This document shows positions 1-14,584 of a DNA stretch of 64,000 nucleotides, one piece after another. This DNA is from Prochlorococcus marinus XMU1408 (GTDB lineage: Bacteria; Cyanobacteriota; Cyanobacteriia; PCC-6307; Cyanobiaceae), in NCBI RefSeq assembly GCF_003208055.1, contig NZ_QJUE01000005.1:310001-374000 (forward strand), given 5' to 3'. Positions within the stretch are counted from its first letter, which is position 1, and every line of letters begins with the position of its first letter. A model generated the notes under the pieces. That model was given only the letters and a program-made list of their open reading frames with translations. It made no database searches and was not told where the DNA came from. Position numbers and translations under genes: made by a program.

Positions 1-1928
1 GACCATCAAAGCCTAAATCTGGCAAGAAAAACAATGGAAAGCCTTTAACTGCACTTAAAAAGCGTAAGAAAGAAACCACGCGTCAAAGGCAAAGAAGACG
101 CGCCATGGAATTAAGGGCCGCAAGAGAAGCAAAACTTGTAAGGCCAGAAATGATTGTAGTTCCAGAGGATAATCTCACTGTTCAAGAACTAGCCGACATG
201 CTCAGCGTTGAAAGTTCTGAAATCATAAAATCACTCTTTTTCAAAGGAATTACTGCAACTGTTACTCAATCATTAGATCTAACAACAATCGAAACAGTTG
301 CTGAGGAATTTGGAGTACCTGTTCTTCAAGATGATGTTGAAGAGGCTGCAAAAAAAACAGTTGAAATGATTGAAGAGGGAGATTTGAAACACTTAATAAG
401 AAGGCCACCTGTCGTTACAGTGATGGGCCATGTAGACCACGGAAAAACATCTTTATTAGATGCTATTAGAAAAGCAAGGGTTGCGGCAGGAGAGGCTGGT
501 GGCATTACTCAACATATTGGTGCTTATCAAATTGAAACTGAACATGATGGATCAACTAAAAAACTAACTTTTCTTGATACTCCTGGACATGAAGCCTTCA
601 CAGCTATGAGAGCTAGAGGCACCAGGGTTACAGATGTAGCGATTTTGGTTGTAGCCGCTGATGATGGCGTTAGGCCTCAAACCCTTGAAGCTATTAGTCA
701 TGCACGAGCAGCAAAAGTCCCCATTGTCGTAGCAATTAACAAAATTGATAAAGAAGGTTCATCTCCTGACCGTGTAAAACAAGAATTATCAGAGCAAGAT
801 TTATTATCTGAAGAATGGGGGGGAGACGTTGTTATGGTTCCCGTTAGCGCAATTAAAGGCGAAAATATTGACAAACTTTTAGAAATGGTTCTTTTAGTAA
901 CTGAAGTCGAAGACCTACAAGCTAACCCAGATCGGTTGGCGAAAGGAACTGTAATAGAAGCCCACTTAGATAAAGCAAAAGGTCCTGTCGCAACATTACT
1001 AGTACAAAACGGCACGCTTAAGTCTGGAGATGTCGTAGCAGCTGGACCAGTCCTTGGCAAAGTAAGAGCGATGGTTGATGAAAATGGATCTAGAATTAAA
1101 GAAGCAGGTCCATCTTGTCCTGTAGAAGCTCTTGGATTCAGTGAAGTCCCAACAGCCGGTGATGAGTTCGAGGTATATCCAGATGAAAAAGCAGCAAGAT
1201 CCGTGGTTGGAGAGCGTGCCACAGATGCTAGGGCAGCTCGACTTGCTCAGCAAATGGCCTCTAGACGAGTATCACTCTCTTCGATATCTGGTCAAGCAAG
1301 TGAAGGTGAACTCAAAGAATTAAATATCATCCTTAAAGCTGATGTTCAAGGAAGTTTAGAAGCAATACTTGGCTCATTAGAACAGCTCCCCAAAGACGAA
1401 GTCCAAGTAAGAGTACTACTCTCAGCTCCAGGAGAAATCACAGAAACTGATGTTGATTTAGCAGCTGCATCTGGTGCCGTTATTGTTGGATTCAATACTT
1501 CAATGGCCTCAGGTGCCAAGCGAGCAGCTGATGCAAATGGTGTTGATGTAAGAGATTACGATGTTATCTATAAGCTTTTAGAAGATATTCAACTTGCAAT
1601 GGAGGGCCTGCTAGAACCAGAAATGATAGAAGAAAGTCTTGGAGTTGCAGAAGTAAGAGCAATATTTTCAATTGGAAAAAGTGCCGTTGCTGGTTGCTAT
1701 GTCACAAATGGAAAAATACAGCGGAATTGCCGTGTGAGAGTCAACAGAGGCAAGCAAATAGTTTTTGAGGGCGATTTAGATTCTCTTAAAAGAAACAAAG
1801 ACGATGTTAAAGATGTATCCACAGGTTTCGAATGTGGCATTGGTTGTGATCGATTTGCAAACTGGGAAGAAGGGGATCAAATAGAAGCCTTCAAACTTGT
1901 CACACAAAGAAGAAAATTAACTAACTAA
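1..1928 (+). CDS. infB: translation initiation factor IF-2 (3' part, start lies before the window)
   Basis: IF-2 is the GTPase that brings fMet-tRNA to the 30S subunit and promotes subunit joining. The reading frame is open from base 3, so the gene is cut at its 5' end; the first in-window Met codon (105) is internal, after a Lys/Arg-rich stretch typical of the linker before the IF2_N domain. Visible in order: the IF2_N-like segment ([13 protein letters not shown]), G1 [10 protein letters not shown]3 DTPGHEAF, G4 NKID, then the domain II-IV region to the end. The C-terminus is KLTN. The stop codon lies inside a TAAC tandem repeat. No sign of decay. Confidence 0.97.
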
Positions 1929-6265: not shown

Positions 6266-6568
6266 AGATCCTAAAATACTAGCAAAACTAGCAAAACTAT
6301 TAATATGCTATGAAAGTAGCTTCTCGAGCTTGCCAAAAATATATAATGTGTGCTTTTAGATACATAAAATTGTATTTATTCTTTGTCGTGAAAATTTTCA
6401 GAAAAAGCTGAGCACCAATCCGTATCAAAACCCAGTCTCAAAAGGGAAAGGCAAAGAATAGTTGGATTATTTAATTACTTATTTGTTTTAAATTTCCTGA
6501 AATACTAAATGACAAAGCTCTAGGCTTGCCTAGGCTAGAAGCTAGGTATACTAGCCTTGACTAGAGAA
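6266..6568. promoter_or_regulatory. divergent intergenic region with several dyads, no gene
   Basis: Lies between the His-rich porin (minus) and the DUF3721 lipoprotein (plus). It holds direct repeats of ACTAGCAAA near 6274-6298, a perfect 12-bp palindrome TGAAAATTTTCA at 6389-6400, and a cluster of CTAG words at 6520-6565 including a 7-bp stem AGGCTAG (6532-6538) / CTAGCCT (6551-6557) that ends 11 bases before the lipoprotein start. No clear Zur box was found, though the palindrome shares TGAAAAT with the Zur-like site at 10207. Confidence 0.5.
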
Positions 6569-6826
6569 ATGAACAAGCTCAAGCCTATTCTTTCTACAAT
6601 TATTATTTCCCTATCATTTTCACTAATAGGATGTTCATATAATTCTCAGAATCAAGGTACTCCCGCTCTTTTTGAGACAAAAAGAGAGGCCGAAAAAGCA
6701 GCAAAGGATTTCAATTGTACTGGGGCTCATAGAATGGGTGATAAATGGATGCCTTGTAAAAGTCATTCTCCTGATGGAGAGAAAGAACATAACAAGTCGA
6801 ACAAAGGGCATCACCACCATCACTAA
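6569..6826 (+). CDS. DUF3721 lipoprotein with C-terminal His tail
   Basis: 85 residues from the ATG at 6569; a TTG four codons upstream is less likely. A lipoprotein signal with LIGC at 19-22 predicts membrane anchoring through Cys22. The rest is a DUF3721 domain: FETKREAEKAAKDF then C50-x3-H54-x-M56-G-x2-W60-M-P-C63-x2-H66. The tail is Lys/His-rich and ends with five His. Two Cys, two His and Met/Trp in fixed spacing strongly suggest metal binding, but no function is established for the family. The next gene, 14 bases downstream, carries the same motif, so they form a pair. The setting (His-rich porin, then znu genes) points to periplasmic or outer-membrane zinc or copper handling. Confidence 0.85.
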   Translation: MNKLKPILSTIIISLSFSLIGCSYNSQNQGTPALFETKREAEKAAKDFNCTGAHRMGDKWMPCKSHSPDGEKEHNKSNKGHHHHH

Positions 6827-6840
6827 ATTTTGAACACTAA

Positions 6841-7284
6841 ATGACAACAAAAAATAGCAGTAATCAAAAAGAGACCGAAGGGCTTTCTCATTGTGGAAGC
6901 AAACCAAAAAAAATTGCATTTGGCATAGCACCACTTGGATTCATTTCTATTGGAATTGTTCCCATGGGGATTATTAGCATTGGAATTGTTCCGATGGGTG
7001 TCGTTTCTATTGGTTCTGTAGCGATGGGAGTAGTAAATGCCTCAATAGTCGGAATGGGAATATTTTCTGCAGGGATAACAACCATGGGTCTAAAGGTATG
7101 GAGTCCAGAACATAATGCTATTCAGGAGTCAATAAATCGTTCTAATTCTCCGTCTTCAAAAAATATATATGCATATCCAACTAAAGCTCAGGCAGAGATC
7201 AAAGCCAAAAAGATCGGATGCGTTGGTGTCCACAAGATGGGTAAATTATGGATGCCTTGTGCAACCCATATCAACCCTAACTAG
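6841..7284 (+). CDS. Gly-Ile repeat membrane protein with C-terminal DUF3721 domain
   Basis: 147 residues in three parts. Residues 1-24 are hydrophilic. Residues 25-83 are an uninterrupted hydrophobic repeat of about 10 residues built on IGIVPMGxxS (IAPLGFISIG, IVPMGIISIG, IVPMGVVSIG, VAMGVVNAS...), with almost no charge, suited to a membrane-embedded or solenoid fold. Residues 110-143 are a DUF3721 domain with C127-x3-H131-x-M133-G-x2-W137-M-P-C140-x2-H143, identical in spacing to the upstream lipoprotein. No signal peptide. The gene pair is probably one operon. Function unknown; a membrane partner of the lipoprotein in metal handling is my inference. Confidence 0.85.
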   Translation: MTTKNSSNQKETEGLSHCGSKPKKIAFGIAPLGFISIGIVPMGIISIGIVPMGVVSIGSVAMGVVNASIVGMGIFSAGITTMGLKVWSPEHNAIQESINRSNSPSSKNIYAYPTKAQAEIKAKKIGCVGVHKMGKLWMPCATHINPN

Positions 7285-8193: not shown

Positions 8194-8979
8194 CTATCTA
8201 TTGTTAGGTATAAGAATCAAAGAAATAACACAAAGAACACTAATGAAAGGTCCAGGAGGCAAATTCAAAATCATAGCCAGCGAAAAACCTATAAGAGATA
8301 AAATTAATCCAAATATGGAGGATCTAACCATCGCAATCCATAAAGATCTTGCTTTATGTAACCCCAATAAAGTTGGGGTTGAAAGTAACGCAATTACAAG
8401 GATGACTCCAACTGCAGACATTGAGCTTACGATGACAAGTGCCGTAGTAAAACCAAGAGCCAAATTTAAAAAAGATACATTAACTCCACTTGAAGCAGCT
8501 CCTTCTGGATCAAGACCAATATGAACTAGCTTGTCGTAACCAAAAAGCATCAAGCAAATAAATACCGAGAACGCGATTACAGTTCGTAGCAGATCACTCA
8601 AATTTGCAGTTAATAAATCTCCAAATAAAACAGCCTCCAAATCAATCCTGATACCAAGTAGAGGGATAAGCAAAACACCGAGTCCCATCGAACCAGCAAG
8701 AATTGTATTCATAATCACTTCATAATTTTGATTTTTTTTATTTGTCAAGCTTTCTGCTGCAATAGCTCCTACCAAGCCGCTGATGACTCCACCAATAGAA
8801 GGATCCAAACCAAGCGCCATAGCCAAAGCAAGACCTGGCAGCACACAATGCGAAATTAAATTAACTTGAAGAAGCCTTTTATGAGTGATCAATACAGTGC
8901 CCATGGCAGGGCAAAGTATTCCTGAAAAGGAAGTTATCAAAAGAGGAATTATCCACCAATTTGTATTGAAAAAAGACAT
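8194..8979 (-). CDS. znuB: zinc ABC transporter, membrane permease
   Basis: ABC-3 family permease that forms the inner-membrane channel for zinc (or manganese) delivered by ZnuA and powered by ZnuC. 261 residues, about eight hydrophobic segments, with the family patterns PAMGTVLI, SHCVLPGLAL near the N-terminus and SAVGVILVIALLSTPT near the C-terminus. The assignment to zinc rests on neighbours (zur, znuC, znuA with His-rich loops). It is separated from znuC by zur on the opposite strand, so it must either have its own promoter within 8980-9032 or be read from a transcript that runs antisense through zur. Confidence 0.9.
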   Translation of the reverse strand: MSFFNTNWWIIPLLITSFSGILCPAMGTVLITHKRLLQVNLISHCVLPGLALAMALGLDPSIGGVISGLVGAIAAESLTNKKNQNYEVIMNTILAGSMGLGVLLIPLLGIRIDLEAVLFGDLLTANLSDLLRTVIAFSVFICLMLFGYDKLVHIGLDPEGAASSGVNVSFLNLALGFTTALVIVSSMSAVGVILVIALLSTPTLLGLHKARSLWIAMVRSSIFGLILSLIGFSLAMILNLPPGPFISVLCVISLILIPNNR

Positions 8980-9032
8980 TAAGCCAATGTTTCAGTATGG
9001 TCAGAAAAAGAGATCAAGTTAAGATCTTGCTT

Positions 9033-9437
9033 ATGAATACAAATAAGCCTGAAATCACTAAACGACAACAGCAACTGCTCCATGAACTTAAGAAATGTGC
9101 TGATGAATTGAGTGGGCAAGAACTGCATAGACAACTTCATCATTGTGAAAAGGGAATGGGACTGACCACGGTCTATCGAAACCTGCAAGCACTAGTAAAA
9201 CAAGGGTTGATTCGTTCCAGACATCTTCCCAATGGTGAGGTTCTTTATGCGCCAGTTGAAAGAGATATCCATCATTTAACTTGCGTAAGCTGTGGAGACA
9301 CCACACGCTTGAAGGGATGTCCGGTGAAAACGATGGATCTGTCGAAAAAAACTTCTAAAAAATTTCAACTTTTGTTTCATACTCTTGAGTACTTTGGTCT
9401 CTGCCAAAATTGTTCTAATCAACTTAATGCTGGATAA
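9033..9437 (+). CDS. zur: Fur-family repressor, probably Zur
   Basis: Metal-sensing winged-helix repressor. The open frame begins at 8997, but I choose ATG 9033 (MNTNKPEITKRQQQLL) because Fur-family proteins begin shortly before this helix; that gives 134 residues. Visible: the DNA-binding part (ELSGQELHRQL ... GLTTVYRNLQALVKQGLI), the metal segment HHLTCVSCGDT, and the second CxxC pair CQNC near the end, which together make the structural zinc site. Divergent from znuB, convergent with znuC (24-bp gap) and close to a Zur-like operator before znuA; hence Zur rather than Fur. The exact metal specificity cannot be read from sequence. Confidence 0.88.
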   Translation: MNTNKPEITKRQQQLLHELKKCADELSGQELHRQLHHCEKGMGLTTVYRNLQALVKQGLIRSRHLPNGEVLYAPVERDIHHLTCVSCGDTTRLKGCPVKTMDLSKKTSKKFQLLFHTLEYFGLCQNCSNQLNAG

Positions 9438-9460: not shown

Positions 9461-10159
9461 CTATAACTTCCACCTCAAATAATTAATTGAACTAAGTTTT
9501 TCTTGAACTTCCTTAGGGCTGCCAGAAGCCAAAATAATTTTATCTAAAGCAACAACTTTGTCATAGGCATTTAAAGATGTTCCCCAGTCGTGACTACTAA
9601 CAAAAACCGTGAATCCCGAATCGGCTAGCTGACGAATGATTAACAAGAAATCTTCTTTAGCGGGAGGATCAAAGGCGGCGCAAGGTTCATCAAGAAGAAA
9701 AATTTTGGCTGGATTCATTAATGTTTTTGCAAGTAATGCTCTTTGTTGCTGTCCGCCAGACAAAGCATCAAGTCTCCTTTTTGCTAAATGAGATATTCCA
9801 ACACGTTGAAGGGCAGCTTCTAATTCACAACAAGTCGATTTGGAATGATTTACTCGGCCTAAAGAGACTAATCCTTCAACAGTAATTGGAAAATTCCAAT
9901 TCAGCTTTCCCCTCTGAGGCATTAAAGCCACTTGAGATCGATTATTTCTCAATAGTTTTCCGTCAACAGTAATTTCTCCTTGATCAGGAGTGCTACTCCC
10001 TTGCAGCAAGTTTAATAATGTTGACTTACCAGCGCCATTTGGACCAACAAGAGCAGTCAAAGTACCTGGCTCAAGCTTAAGAGAAACCTTACTTAAAGCA
10101 GGTTTGATTTTGCTGGAATAGGAATATGTCACATTTTCAGCAATCAAACTAGACATCAA
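9461..10159 (-). CDS. znuC: zinc ABC transporter, ATPase
   Basis: ATP-binding subunit that drives ZnuB. 232 residues. Walker A GPNGAGKST, Q-loop MPQRGKLNWNFP, signature LSGGQQQRALLAKTL, Walker B IFLLDEPCAAFDP, and the switch His in SSHDW. The MPQR..WNFP loop is typical of the zinc/manganese ATPases. Two ATG codons in tandem are possible starts. It is divergent from znuA across a 89-base region that contains a Zur-like box, so both genes may be controlled by the same operator. Confidence 0.94.
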   Translation of the reverse strand: MMSSLIAENVTYSYSSKIKPALSKVSLKLEPGTLTALVGPNGAGKSTLLNLLQGSSTPDQGEITVDGKLLRNNRSQVALMPQRGKLNWNFPITVEGLVSLGRVNHSKSTCCELEAALQRVGISHLAKRRLDALSGGQQQRALLAKTLMNPAKIFLLDEPCAAFDPPAKEDFLLIIRQLADSGFTVFVSSHDWGTSLNAYDKVVALDKIILASGSPKEVQEKLSSINYLRWKL

Positions 10160-10206
10160 TTAGAGGATTTGCTGACAAGAAACATAATATACTTGCCAAC
10201 CTCGAA

Positions 10207-10222
10207 TGAAAATGATTATCGT
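10207..10222. promoter_or_regulatory. probable Zur operator between znuC and znuA
   Basis: TGAAAATGATTATCGT is an imperfect 7-1-7 dyad centred on G10214 and resembles the Zur/Fur-type operator TGATAATNATTATCA. It lies in the short divergent region, 26 bases before the znuA start and 47 bases before the znuC start, so a bound repressor could block both. Based on motif resemblance only. Confidence 0.7.
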
Positions 10223-10248
10223 TTTTAGATATGCTAATCTTTGATTAA

Positions 10249-11766
10249 ATGCCGAAATTGTTCAATCAACCCAGCAAAAGCAAATCAATATTCAATAAAA
10301 CAGTCCTTAATAGCTCTTTTCTTGCTGGAGCATTTTTATTCTCGGGAATTAATCTGAGTGCACAGGCAAATTCAAAACCAATTGTTGCCGTAGAGCCATT
10401 AGTATGCGATGTCGTTTCTGCGATCGCACCACCTTCAACACCTGTAACCTGCTTAATTGACAGAAAACAAGATGTTCATGATGTCAAAATCACTCCAAGA
10501 CAGGCCCAAACGCTGAAAAGTGCAAACCAAGTATTTACTCTTGGTTCAGAGATGACCCCTGCAATCAAAAAATGGTTAGATAATCCTTTAACTGTTGTTG
10601 TCGGCGTAAGTGCAATAGAAATAGACGATCATCATGACGATCACGATGATCATTCCGCTGCTAAGGATGATGAACACGATGATCATTCAGCTGCTAAACA
10701 TGATGATCATGATGATCATGATGATCATGGCGATAACCATGGAGAAGGAGCTTTTGAATGGGCTGGTGTTTTTGATCTTTCAGCAGGAACATACAAATGG
10801 TCTTTTGCCAAAGTCGATGGAGACTATGCTGATCCTGCAATGAAAATGGTTATTCTCAACTCTGGTGATATTGAAGCATCAGAAGAGCTTGCTAAAAAAT
10901 TATTAGGATCTAATAATTCAGAAACCAAACGCAATAATGACAAACTTGTTGCGCAGGAAAAAGCATATTTTCTTTCATTTAATGAGAAGAAAGACACCAC
11001 AACATTTACTGTAGAAATCAAAAAAGGTGGTAAATATGCATTCTTTACTGAGCATATGCCTTTTGAATTTGAAGCCGACGAACATTTCTTTAAGGATATT
11101 TCAGGCGACGATGTTGAACCGATTGCTCAAGTCCCAGATGAAGGCGATCATCATCACCACCATGACCATGGTGGGCTAGATCCTCATATCTGGCATGACC
11201 CTCATAACATTATCAAGATGGGAAATGTCATTTCTAAAAATATCAATAAGAAAATTTCCTTCTTTGACAGAGAAACAAAAAAAGTTTTAAAAGAAAGAAC
11301 TCAAACCTTTAATTCTATTTTGGAAGATCTCGACTTATGGACTCAAAAACAAGTTGCCACAATTCCTACTGATCGAAGGACAATCGTTTCTAAGCACAAA
11401 GCGATGGAATATTACGGAGATGCATTTGGCTTGAAGACTTTGAGTCTATTAGATTTCCTTGGTGATTCTTCCAGCCTTAGACCAGAGACTATTTCAACGG
11501 TAATAGCTGAGCTCAAAGAAGAAAACGTGAACGTATTATTCGCAGAGCAAAAGCCTCCTTCCAAGCTATTGAAAAACTTGAGCAGACAAACTTCCACCCC
11601 TATCGCAAGAAATCAAATCTTTGTTGATGGACTAATGCTAGAAGGAAATACTGTTTCAGTAGCAGTACACAACACATGTACAATTGTTGATTCGCTTGGT
11701 GGAGAATGTGATGAAAAAGAGGGTGAGAAACTCGAGAATGAATGGAATTCCTTAACTAACCCTTAA
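10249..11766 (+). CDS. znuA: zinc-binding protein ZnuA with inserted FEW domain
   Basis: Periplasmic solute-binding protein of the cluster A-I metal family. 505 residues, far longer than the usual ~300. Order: signal peptide (~1-40); N-lobe with the zinc ligand His77 (QDVHDV); His/Asp-rich loop 128-165; an extra domain about 168-290 starting FEWAGVFDLSAGTY (F169-W171), with DPAMKMVIL and FFTEH (265-269); second His loop 301-307 (HHHHHDH); then the standard part LDPHIWHDPHN and SKHKAMEYYG. His-rich loops in ZnuA are known to catch zinc and pass it to the main site. The extra domain resembles residues 221-330 of the COG0523 GTPase two genes downstream. Confidence 0.93.
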   Translation: MPKLFNQPSKSKSIFNKTVLNSSFLAGAFLFSGINLSAQANSKPIVAVEPLVCDVVSAIAPPSTPVTCLIDRKQDVHDVKITPRQAQTLKSANQVFTLGSEMTPAIKKWLDNPLTVVVGVSAIEIDDHHDDHDDHSAAKDDEHDDHSAAKHDDHDDHDDHGDNHGEGAFEWAGVFDLSAGTYKWSFAKVDGDYADPAMKMVILNSGDIEASEELAKKLLGSNNSETKRNNDKLVAQEKAYFLSFNEKKDTTTFTVEIKKGGKYAFFTEHMPFEFEADEHFFKDISGDDVEPIAQVPDEGDHHHHHDHGGLDPHIWHDPHNIIKMGNVISKNINKKISFFDRETKKVLKERTQTFNSILEDLDLWTQKQVATIPTDRRTIVSKHKAMEYYGDAFGLKTLSLLDFLGDSSSLRPETISTVIAELKEENVNVLFAEQKPPSKLLKNLSRQTSTPIARNQIFVDGLMLEGNTVSVAVHNTCTIVDSLGGECDEKEGEKLENEWNSLTNP

Positions 11767-11773
11767 TGTAAAA

Positions 11774-11820
11774 AGTCTCAATAATGTCTACTTTGATCAA
11801 AGATAGACATTATTGAGACT
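11774..11820 (+). promoter_or_regulatory. 47-base hairpin (17-bp perfect arms) before the next start codon
   Basis: AGTCTCAATAATGTCTA (11774-11790) is the exact reverse complement of 11804-11820; the loop itself contains the palindrome TTTGATCAAA. It begins 5 bases after the znuA stop and ends 2 bases before the ATG of the next ORF, so it covers any ribosome-binding site. It lacks a T tract, so it is not a standard terminator; an attenuator, mRNA-stability element or operator is possible. Confidence 0.75.
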
Positions 11821-11822
11821 AA

Positions 11823-12140
11823 ATGTTTTCAACCAAAGGATATAAAGCTTACAAACAGCATTGGGAAGACCAGGCAGGTTTCATGGATAAAACACCATGG
11901 GACCAACTTAAGATCCTAAAACTTACTATATCAACTGATTTCGATGACAATTTAAAAGAACTTCAATTTTCAAATCATTCGCTCAAAAAAGAGAATGGGA
12001 AACATACATTAAGAGTAAAAGTTCCTTATAATTATTCCGAGCTTGATGACTTTGAATCAAAGTCACTAGAATTATTAGGCATCCAAGAGAATTGGCTAAC
12101 TGACATCTCTCTTGAGAACTCACGTTGTTCAAATCGCTAA
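11823..12140 (+). CDS. unknown 105-residue protein between znuA and the COG0523 GTPase
   Basis: Not recognised. Hydrophilic, no signal peptide or membrane segment; likely cytosolic. The N-terminal part is aromatic/basic (MFSTKGYKAYKQHWEDQAGFMDKTPW in two blocks), then a mixed alpha/beta-looking stretch (KILKLTISTDFDDNLKELQF, TLRVKVPYNYSELDDFE). The start ATG sits directly after a strong hairpin, and no ribosome-binding site is free; ATG 11883 is a possible alternative start. Only 9 bases separate its stop from the GTPase start, so it probably belongs to the znuA-GTPase-WD40 unit. Confidence 0.7.
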   Translation: MFSTKGYKAYKQHWEDQAGFMDKTPWDQLKILKLTISTDFDDNLKELQFSNHSLKKENGKHTLRVKVPYNYSELDDFESKSLELLGIQENWLTDISLENSRCSNR

Positions 12141-12149
12141 TTAAAGAAA

Positions 12150-13532
12150 ATGAGCACCAAGCAAAAAGTACCGGTGACTATACTGACTGGTTTTCTAGGA
12201 TCTGGCAAAACGACTCTACTTAATCGAATTCTAAGCGAAGAACACGGTAAAAAAATAGCTGTTATTGAAAATGAATATGGTGAAGTTGGTATTGATCAAG
12301 GATTAGTAATCAATGCTGATGAAGAGGTCTTCGAGATGTCTAATGGTTGCATCTGCTGCACAGTACGTGGAGATTTAATTCGTGTACTAGGAAACCTCAT
12401 GAAGAGGCGAGACAAATTTGACTATGTATTAGTTGAAACTACTGGCCTTGCTGATCCTGGTCCTGTAGCTCAGACATTCTTCATGGACGATGAAATCCGT
12501 GATGAGTTTTCACTCGATGGTATAGTCACACTTGTAGACGCAGCCCATATAGAACAACAACTTGGTCGAAGTGATGAAAGTTCGGAGCAAGTTGCTTTCG
12601 CTGACGTCCTTGTTCTAAATAAAACTGATCTAGTTTCAGATGAATCACTCGACAATTTAGAGTCAAGGCTACGCGATATGAATCGTATGGCTCGTGTGAT
12701 ACGCAGTAAGCAAGCAGACGTCTCAATTGATACTGTTCTAAATCTAAGTGCTTTTGATCTAGATCAAGTACTTCAGCGTCGTCCAACTTTTCTGGAACCA
12801 GAATATCCATTTGAGTGGACCGGCGTGTTTACACTTGAAGAAGGTCGCTATGAACTTACTCTCGAAGAAGGACCAGACCCTACCATGTCTCTTGTCCTGT
12901 TATTAGACCAAGGCAAGGATGAGACATCTCTCAACTCAGGTGCTGAATCATGCGTAAGACTATATGCTGAACCAGAACAACCTTTGGAGCCAGGCAACAT
13001 AGTCCCCGTGGGGAAGCATGTGAGCCTTCAACTTCAGTCTTCAGGTACTAAGTCTTTCCCTATAGACGTTGACAAGGCAAGGAATATAGGTCTATTCACT
13101 CAACATACAGCAGAGGAATTCAGTTTAAAAATAACTAAAGTAAAAAACTCAACTACTGAAGATAACAATAGTGATCAAAATTTTTCAGAGATTTCTCCAG
13201 CAGCTGAACGAGTTTGGGTAGCAGAGCACGAACATGATGACGAAGTGGGCTCTATTGCTATCGAGCGAGTAGGAGATGTAGATCCAGAGAAACTAAATAG
13301 GTGGTTAAGCAGGCTCCTCTCAGAAAAAGGGGTGGATATATTCCGCACGAAAGGATTCATTAGCTATGAGGGAGAGTCACGGCGAATAGTTTTTCAAGGA
13401 GTACATATGCTCTTCACCGCCCAACCTGATAAAGAGTGGGGCAATGAACCTCGCCGTAACCAACTCGTCTTTATCGGTAGAAATCTTGATGAAGCAGAAA
13501 TGATTAGGGAGTTTGACAAATGTCTGGTATAG
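12150..13532 (+). CDS. COG0523 (CobW-like) GTPase with inserted FEW domain, putative zinc chaperone
   Basis: COG0523 proteins are cytosolic GTPases that insert metals into target proteins; Zur-linked members act with zinc. 460 residues. Walker A GFLGSGKTT (14-22), ENEYGEVGID (40-49), the metal motif CICC (67-70) in SNGCICCTVRGDL, ETTGLADPGP (96-105), NKTD (157-160). Residues about 221-330 are an extra domain beginning FEWTGVFTLEEGRY, with DPTMSLVLL and LFTQH, resembling the extra domain of ZnuA. A His/Glu run HEHDDE (360-365) then precedes the CobW_C domain (377-460). Overlaps the WD40 gene by 13 bases. Cobalamin CobW is less likely in this zinc context. Confidence 0.92.
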   Translation: MSTKQKVPVTILTGFLGSGKTTLLNRILSEEHGKKIAVIENEYGEVGIDQGLVINADEEVFEMSNGCICCTVRGDLIRVLGNLMKRRDKFDYVLVETTGLADPGPVAQTFFMDDEIRDEFSLDGIVTLVDAAHIEQQLGRSDESSEQVAFADVLVLNKTDLVSDESLDNLESRLRDMNRMARVIRSKQADVSIDTVLNLSAFDLDQVLQRRPTFLEPEYPFEWTGVFTLEEGRYELTLEEGPDPTMSLVLLLDQGKDETSLNSGAESCVRLYAEPEQPLEPGNIVPVGKHVSLQLQSSGTKSFPIDVDKARNIGLFTQHTAEEFSLKITKVKNSTTEDNNSDQNFSEISPAAERVWVAEHEHDDEVGSIAIERVGDVDPEKLNRWLSRLLSEKGVDIFRTKGFISYEGESRRIVFQGVHMLFTAQPDKEWGNEPRRNQLVFIGRNLDEAEMIREFDKCLV

Positions 13533-14584
13533 AAGCATTTAGTCCCAAGGGAATGCTTCATGAAGGTTGGTCTACTCAAGTTGACGACTATGCGATTGTC
13601 TGCGGCTGGGCACTAGAAGGTAAAACTTTTTTAGTGGGTGATGTCGCTGGTGGGCTTTACGCTTTTGAGGGGAAATCTGGAAAGCTCATTTGGCAAGTAA
13701 AAGACACACATAAAGGTGGCTTACTAGCAATGTCTATTCATCCAGATGGAAATACTTTTGCGACTGCTGGCCAGGATGGAAATGTGTATATATGGGAAAG
13801 TCAAGAAGGGAAATCAACTAAAAATTTAGAACTTGGGAAAGGATGGGTTGAGCACATCAAGTGGTCCCAAGACGGAAAATTCTTAGCAGTAGTTTTTACT
13901 AAGTATGTTTATGTTTTTGATGAAAAAGGTCAAGAGCACTGGAAATCAGAGGAACATCCCAGTACTGTCAGCGCGATTGCTTGGTCTAATTCAAATGAGT
14001 TAGCAACAGCATGCTATGGCCAAGTCACTTTTTTTGATGTCGTTAGCGACAACGTCAATCAAAAGTTGGAATGGAGAGGTTCACTGGTATCTATGGTGCT
14101 TAGTCCAGATGGAGACATAGTGGCATGCGGCAGTCAGGATAATTCTGTTCATTTCTGGCGTCGTTCAACTGATGAAGATTCAGAGATGACAGGATATCCA
14201 GGCAAACCAAGCCACCTAGCTTTTGATCAAACTGGTACAGTTCTAGCTACCGGGGGTAGTGATCGAGTAACAGTTTGGAGTTTTCAAGGCAATGGTCCTG
14301 AGGGCACTGTGCCAGGCGAGCTAATGCTTCATACGGAACCAATTTCTTGCCTTGCTTTCTCACATAGCGGAATGCTTCTAGCTTCTGGTGCAAGAGATGG
14401 TTCGGTTTTTTCTTGGTTTCTCCAAAAAGATGGTCAGGGTGATCCAGTTGGTGGTGCATTTGTAGGTAACCTTGTAAGCCAAATCGCTTGGCATCCTGAT
14501 GACAGTGCCTTGGCTGCAATAAATGCAAATGGAGGAATTACGGTTTGGGAATTTAAGGTTCGGAGCAAAACAACACCTCAATAA
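13520..14584 (+). CDS. WD40 repeat protein coupled to the COG0523 GTPase
   Basis: 354 residues forming about seven WD40 blades (recognisable repeats: LLAMSIHPDGNTFATAGQDG..IW, VEHIKWSQDGKFLAV, VSAIAWSNSNELATA, LVSMVLSPDGDIVACGSQDNSVHFW, HLAFDQTGTVLATGGSDRVTVW, ISCLAFSHSGMLLASGARDGSVFSW, VSQIAWHPDDSALAA..ITVW), so a complete beta-propeller scaffold. No enzyme motif, signal peptide or membrane segment. It overlaps the GTPase stop by 13 bases, implying translational coupling and a common function. A platform on which the GTPase meets client apo-proteins is my inference. Confidence 0.9.
   Translation: MSGIEAFSPKGMLHEGWSTQVDDYAIVCGWALEGKTFLVGDVAGGLYAFEGKSGKLIWQVKDTHKGGLLAMSIHPDGNTFATAGQDGNVYIWESQEGKSTKNLELGKGWVEHIKWSQDGKFLAVVFTKYVYVFDEKGQEHWKSEEHPSTVSAIAWSNSNELATACYGQVTFFDVVSDNVNQKLEWRGSLVSMVLSPDGDIVACGSQDNSVHFWRRSTDEDSEMTGYPGKPSHLAFDQTGTVLATGGSDRVTVWSFQGNGPEGTVPGELMLHTEPISCLAFSHSGMLLASGARDGSVFSWFLQKDGQGDPVGGAFVGNLVSQIAWHPDDSALAAINANGGITVWEFKVRSKTTPQ

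Follow-up and report, generated by a model that had tools for sequence, protein, structure and literature searches.

Within 64,000 nucleotides of the genome of Prochlorococcus marinus XMU1408 (contig NZ_QJUE01000005.1, positions 310,001-374,000; this whole stretch is called the window, and coordinates are counted from its first letter), two nearby genes encode ZnuA, the substrate-binding protein of a zinc ATP-binding cassette (ABC) importer, and a COG0523 (CobW-type) GTPase. The two proteins carry the same inserted domain: residues 166-293 of ZnuA and residues 218-332 of the GTPase are homologous. With about even confidence, we regard the insert as a family of small beta-sandwich domains that form a putative metal-binding cap beside histidine-rich strings. 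Held more tentatively, with confidence somewhat short of even, is the wider proposal: a mobile E-D-H-E metal-binding domain may be the zinc-holding part common to importers and zinc-delivering GTPases, evolutionarily interchangeable with His-rich strings.

One domain in ZnuA and in a COG0523 GTPase

The znuA gene (10249..11766, + strand, 505 aa; PF01297, E 2.5e-45) encodes the inserted domain at 10744..11127, and the GTPase gene (12150..13532, + strand, 460 aa) encodes it at 12801..13145. A preliminary description, prepared from the DNA sequence, had placed one domain in both proteins, on both sides of the membrane. The positions of the open reading frames (ORFs), the segment starts FEWAGVFDLSAGTY and FEWTGVFTLEEGRY, the cores DPAMKMVIL and DPTMSLVLL and the ends FFTEH and LFTQH were all as quoted there, and the homology was confirmed: whole ZnuA matched the whole GTPase by BLASTP (E 4e-7), and each segment, searched against the whole own genome, found only itself and the other protein (E 1.7e-4 from the GTPase segment, E 1.3e-4 from the ZnuA segment; E-values from pairwise tools are for a single comparison). 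The profile comparison proposed in the same description was significant: a ZnuA-only profile (6 rows) was aligned by hhalign to a GTPase-only profile (16 rows) over 106 columns with a probability of 99.3% and E 3e-20, and a haloarchaeal profile matched the GTPase profile with a probability of 99.9%. Chance or composition as the source of the likeness is excluded by the BLASTP, own-genome and hhalign results.

In the GTPase, the domain sits between the G domain (PF02492, E 8.9e-62, residues 8-184) and CobW_C (PF07683, E 8e-25, residues 367-459), directly before an HxH motif (HEHD, 13224..13241, + strand), as library searches and the alignment to YjiA agree with the preliminary description in showing. 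YjiA (PDB 1nij, E 2.2e-62), the only solved COG0523 structure among the matches listed, has no inserted domain. The P-loop cobW-family G domain and CobW_C are both present in the window GTPase, whose residues 7-214 and 363-452 align to YjiA with the segment in between left unaligned; compared with the COG0523 fold as known, the domain is thus inserted. The ZnuA body was matched by PF01297 in two stretches and has two lobes and a His-rich loop. The domain lies, as described before, between two strings of that loop: a His/Asp-rich string on its 5' side (10624..10743, + strand, limits approximate) and a second His-rich string (11140..11175, + strand, limits approximate), which is followed by DPHIWHDPH of the C-lobe. 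In alignments, close ZnuA paralogues without the insert have the empty site within their His/Asp-rich loop.

The domain is a predicted small beta-sandwich. In the models of both proteins, three strands, a helix, further strands, a short helix and a strand follow in the same order; the GTPase model had a mean predicted local distance difference test (pLDDT) score of 87 (block means 91-97 across residues 221-330), and the isolated ZnuA domain had a mean pLDDT of 93.5 and a predicted template modelling (pTM) score of 0.87. The expected likeness of folds is thus seen in the models, but it is not independent evidence, because 64 of the 68 rows in the alignment behind the ZnuA domain model are GTPases (the other 4 are ZnuA-type). 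No PDB fold match was found by Foldseek at E <= 0.001, the best VIA fold match had Z 5.0, and no solved relative was found by sequence at E <= 10. A named family was sought with 68 members in Pfam and NCBIfam and none matched at E <= 0.001, the best sub-threshold values being 0.0015 (Pfam DUF7055, 5 members) and 0.0043 (NCBIfam, 1 member). The insert was found under no name in the portion of the open-licence literature that was searched. With no significant Pfam or NCBIfam match and no close PDB fold, the domain is unnamed so far.

Hosts and movement of the domain

Among 386 cyanobacterial genomes, the GTPase segment had matches in 31 and the ZnuA segment in 27. A ZnuA-type insert was present in 22 genomes, which are close relatives; all 22 also had the GTPase type, and the two copies were ~2 kb apart in 20/22. 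In 9 of the 31 matching genomes the domain was in the GTPase only. A scan of genome contigs found 226 relatives, several of them in metagenome-assembled genomes (MAGs), and 80 loci were kept, each with a domain GTPase; a ZnuA copy was also present in a Hahella MAG (L121), a Verrucomicrobia MAG (L096) and a Kiritimatiellae MAG (L111). The MAG labels of L131 (Klebsiella pneumoniae) and L134 (Akkermansia muciniphila) look doubtful.

GTPase copies occur in many phyla, mostly upstream of a WD40 gene, and ZnuA copies outside the cyanobacteria were found in gammaproteobacteria, Verrucomicrobiota/Kiritimatiellota and haloarchaea. At E <= 0.001, domain matches were obtained in 4/229 genomes of the class of the Hahella MAG, 5/312 of its order, 18/145 of the phylum of G399 and 10/151 of the phylum of G387 (Ktedonobacter). 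The gammaproteobacterial genomes G562 and G928 each had one match, in ZnuA, and at three of four haloarchaeal ZnuA loci (L064, L065, L067) the neighbouring COG0523 GTPases were without the domain. Viral contigs searched with the ZnuA segment gave no match. The GTPases L227-L233 come from the phylum of G387; the G domains of L227, L231 and L232 are 87-89% identical to that of the window GTPase, which suggests gene transfer with picocyanobacteria.

From plasmid records came further hosts: substrate-binding proteins and three small proteins of haloarchaea, and a membrane protein of Alicyclobacillus (L070:4788-5699), whose copy of the domain comes after a His-rich string; metal regulators and cation transporters are encoded nearby. 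By eye, the membrane protein is of the NicO/HupE transporter type; no Pfam match was obtained at E <= 0.05. One small haloarchaeal protein, lipoprotein-like (L071:4872-5423), adjoins a urease operon, a neighbourhood hinting at nickel as well as zinc. The expectation that the domain would be confined to zinc-linked proteins nearly holds, the exceptions being this urease-adjacent protein and small haloarchaeal hosts without known function. Genome G223 (L008/L030) has two domain copies in one ZnuA ORF of > 830 aa, which resembles two fused ZnuAs. Two Chloroflexota ZnuAs near a GTPase (L106:2401-4080 and L116:7285-8841) carry another insert of ~110 residues in the His-rich loop (the YTFDLAPGDYSISFG region), which was not matched by the profile of the window's domain.

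In a 49-row domain tree, a GTPase branch (13 rows) was separated from an extracytoplasmic branch (36 rows) with support of 93/83; long branches were flagged by the tool, and support for this split is thus moderate. A recent copy from the neighbouring GTPase gene into ZnuA was considered and is rejected by these separate branches. The picocyanobacterial ZnuA inserts group with those of three gammaproteobacteria (96/82). Between the ZnuAs of the window and of G562, the insert is identical at 100/131 positions (76%) and the body at 55/269 (20%); between the window and Hahella, at 76/131 and 61/263, respectively. Two control pairs gave similar values for insert and body: 92/131 (70%) and 182/286 (64%) within picocyanobacteria, and 80/131 (61%) and 147/264 (56%) for G562 and Hahella. 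Slow evolution of the domain is therefore rejected as the source of the 76% identity, and the mismatch between insert and body, unlike in the controls, indicates that the insert moved between ZnuA bodies. At the level of the sequences compared, the domain is shown to have spread as a module between ZnuA bodies. In the tree as drawn, the picocyanobacterial inserts arise from within the gammaproteobacterial ones and leave these paraphyletic, so the direction leans towards transfer into picocyanobacteria, without being settled.

In a C-lobe tree of 50 ZnuAs, whose rows include none of the three gammaproteobacterial ZnuAs entered (presumably too distant to pass the filter), the 29 domain-bearing proteins form one group nested within domain-less ones (97/98, 97/88, 98/93), with one later loss of the domain in G939. 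In this genome, L277:2326-4036 holds a domain-less ZnuA, orf105 and a 92-aa GTPase remnant, and an intact domain-bearing set is on another contig (L270); the pattern may reflect concerted loss or a mixed genome bin.

Conserved residues and proposed function

Across 68 aligned domains, just five columns were invariant: E5, G8, D30, H104 and E108 of the ZnuA segment, i.e. E170, G173, D195, H269 and E273 of the protein, whose GTPase counterparts are E222, G225, D243, H319 and E323. A larger set of 164 unique full-length domains (122 GTPase, 42 other) was assembled from profile matches running from position 6 or earlier to position 105 or later, with duplicates merged (176 to 164) and 14 split Verrucomicrobiota domains left out; one of the five rows classed as 'other' is the first copy of a tandem pair within a single ZnuA ORF (L011, genome G161). 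G173 and E273 were kept in 164/164 of these domains and E170, D195 and H269 in 163/164 each, and outside GTPases all five were kept in 42/42. The predicted secondary structure would place the E, D, H and E residues at the ends of strands, within loops or on the short helix.

The exceptions were counted without the length filter: 229 ORFs had a match, 39 were set aside as cut and 190 were assessed, the test for D being too loose in this recount. HxxxE[FL] was found in 133/147 GTPases and in 42/43 other proteins, the exception being one of the two ORFs into which a haloarchaeal ZnuA (L065) is broken. The 14 GTPases without the motif (L197-L205, L207-L211) all come from one sample, the phylum of G399. 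In fourteen COG0523 GTPases (L198-L211), a long His-rich string splits the domain at the loop that precedes D; 13 of the 14 proteins without the motif carry this intradomain string, and L206, of the same kind, is absent from the list without the motif. In L197, E, D and H are lost together (to T, K and F) and a His-rich string follows right after the domain: it has 10 flanking His, and none of the remaining 121 GTPases counted exceeds 5. Read after the fact, these proteins would fit a single metal site located at this end of the domain and replaceable by His strings. All 37 rows counted as ZnuA-type have 6 or more His in their two 45-residue flanks combined, and an HxH motif lies <= 60 aa C-terminal to the domain in 114/114 assessable GTPases (of 122 counted).

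A zinc-handling role is suggested by the well-kept E, D, H and E residues, the His-rich neighbours, the Zur box and the znu genes (relatives of znuA, znuB or zur are present in 28/80 GTPase loci), and we would picture it as follows. The E, D, H and E residues would form one metal site, probably for zinc. Zinc collected by the His-rich strings of ZnuA would be retained by the cap and delivered to the cleft of the protein, which would improve capture when zinc is very scarce. The GTPase cap would keep zinc within the linker, a position at which certain other COG0523 proteins have a His-rich stretch, until movement driven by GTP transfers the metal to a client; the neighbouring WD40 protein may be a partner in this. 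Repression by Zur would bring the ZnuA and GTPase copies out together in zinc shortage. Since metal is common to both compartments, a metal-binding cap would explain the use of the domain on both sides of the membrane.

Several points weigh against the metal-binding cap. Metal binding by the domain is deduced, and kept acid and His residues can be structural. Sampling favoured kept residues, through the scan patterns for the 80 loci, which contain the E-W-x-G (E170-W171-G173) and G-P-D-P (D195-P196) stretches, and through the length filter, which favours domains long enough to include H269 and E273. By eye, D is kept in four split domains (GPDG in L199 and L201, NPDE in L203 and L205), which means that the His string is not a simple substitute for D; the split domains may also represent one lineage or a few events, and they were interpreted after the data had been seen. 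The flanks of the counted GTPases are not His-rich (median His in 45 residues: 0 before, 2 after). Close ZnuA paralogues without the insert exist, and the insert is therefore probably not needed for uptake as such; in the two-domain protein AdcA, the added domain is dispensable for zinc import (PMC7858048).

The neighbourhood of the GTPases raises the alternative of a protein-docking module, in which the domain would be a partner-binding surface, e.g. for the cytosolic WD40 protein. A WD40 gene lies directly downstream of the domain GTPase in 64/73 assessable loci (7 more loci end too soon) and after 0/31 domain-less GTPase ORFs of loci L064-L151, locus ends not being allowed for. The WD40 link is already known, because the available portions of Haas et al. 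(2009, PMC2770081) report clustering of the prokaryotic COG0523 subfamily 5 genes with genes for WD40 proteins and ZnuABC, and Zur sites for some of them. Docking is at odds with the copies in ZnuA and in secreted small proteins, which are outside the cytosol, with the lack of a relative of the window's WD40 protein in the stretches searched at haloarchaeal loci and G562, and with best-kept residues that are the same across all host types. WD40 docking cannot be the function common to all hosts, and we consider the docking module unlikely. A direct match between ZnuA and the GTPase, which would recognise each other or one common partner through the domain, could account for the co-occurrence in all 22 cyanobacterial genomes and the ~2 kb spacing in 20 of them, and also for the domain-less ZnuA paralogues, none of which has a domain GTPase downstream in the fetched stretch (4/4 assessable: L266, L267, L271, L277; the GTPase that follows in L271 lacks the domain; L268, where the contig ends after znuA, and L274, where the stretch ends early, were left out). 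A membrane separates the two proteins, their copies stand on separate branches of the domain tree, and direct pairing is contradicted by the 9 cyanobacterial genomes with the GTPase type only and by G562, G928 and haloarchaeal loci, where the domain is in ZnuA and not in the GTPases seen. Docking of ZnuA to the GTPase is unlikely, and a matched pair of either kind appears highly improbable; of the shared zinc-sensing or docking module suggested in the preliminary description, the zinc-handling half is retained as a putative role and the docking half is not supported.

The position of the ZnuA domain between His strings, and the paralogues that lack it, would also suit a structural spacer that props up or separates the strings and binds nothing. 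A spacer has no obvious need for the same E, D, H and E in ZnuA, small secreted proteins and GTPases, and the joint loss of three kept residues in L197 is not expected from it; we regard it as quite unlikely. That the beta-sandwich instead binds some different ligand (a sugar, a peptide or a small molecule), the metal context being secondary, is very unlikely: weak fold matches (Z <= 5.0) include carbohydrate-binding modules, Eph ligand-binding domains and GOLD, but they are too weak to carry meaning, and the classifiable hosts are metal proteins.

The zinc locus and related systems

The znuA gene, orf105, the COG0523 GTPase gene and the WD40 gene follow in that order on the + strand of the window (GC 36%; source genome 1.8 Mb). 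The small gene orf105 (11823..12140), whose family match was not significant, accompanies the block in related picocyanobacteria, and the WD40-repeat protein gene (13520..14584, library match) overlaps the end of the GTPase gene. Upstream are znuB (permease, 8194..8979, - strand) and znuC (ATPase, 9461..10159, - strand), both named by sequence and position, and between them a Fur-family regulator, probably Zur (8997..9437, + strand; PF01475, E 6.2e-17). The divergent znuC/znuA promoter contains a Zur-box-like site (10206..10228, + strand) with 1 mismatch in the 16 specified bases of a consensus taken from the available part of PMC9337993. Of 20 first-order simulated sequences, 17 had a best site with 3 mismatches and the other 3 one with 4; the remaining near sites of the window, including two with 2 mismatches, fall inside the His/Asp-coding repeat of znuA. 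Zinc binding and import by the window ZnuA would fit the Zur box and the znuB/znuC/zur context. Close to the locus (6557-7284), two adjacent DUF3721 genes were noted, one with GLTT repeats and the other with a His-rich C-terminal tail.

The CxCC metal motif of the GTPase is NGCICC (residues 65-70), with N65, G66, C67, C69 and C70 invariant in 45 rows. The GTPase resembles COG0523 subfamily 5, with a WD40 neighbour, znu genes and a Zur-box-like site; it differs by the inserted domain, which is not mentioned in the available portions of the subfamily description, where most eukaryotic COG0523 proteins, human included, are placed in subfamily 5 (PMC2770081). The window GTPase model also matched the dynein factor Shulin (6zyx; Z 16.8, 286 aligned, root-mean-square deviation 4.5), and a weak Pfam DAAF9_2 match was obtained; both point to a CobW-like part within a eukaryotic protein.

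The window ZnuA resembles the cluster A-I substrate-binding proteins (PF01297) in its two-lobed body, His-rich loop and znuB/znuC/zur neighbours, and differs from an ordinary ZnuA by the extra domain of ~128 residues inside the His-rich loop. AdcA of Gram-positives combines a ZnuA-like domain with an added C-terminal domain, each binding one zinc, according to the accessible part of PMC7858048. It is alike in joining a ZnuA-type protein with a His-rich loop to a second, zinc-binding domain, binding by the window domain being only deduced; the added domain is C-terminal in AdcA, whereas the window domain is internal and is also found in a cytosolic GTPase. We take the added domain of AdcA to be ZinT-like; no ZinT family was listed for the window domain in the Pfam searches. 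The anchored-repeat metal substrate-binding proteins of TIGR03772/TIGR03769 presumably have an extra repeat domain common to other surface proteins; TIGR03772 matched only the ZnuA body in the window (304-397), and the NCBIfam match in the domain was not significant.

To our knowledge, how COG0523 GTPases hold and release zinc and what the His-rich loops of ZnuA do are both open questions. A domain common to both proteins, with few strongly kept residues and with hosts that have it and hosts that lack it, is a compact object to purify and mutate. One domain passes between the very different ZnuA bodies of picocyanobacteria and gammaproteobacteria, and if metal binding is true, it would be a shared spare part of bacterial zinc supply.

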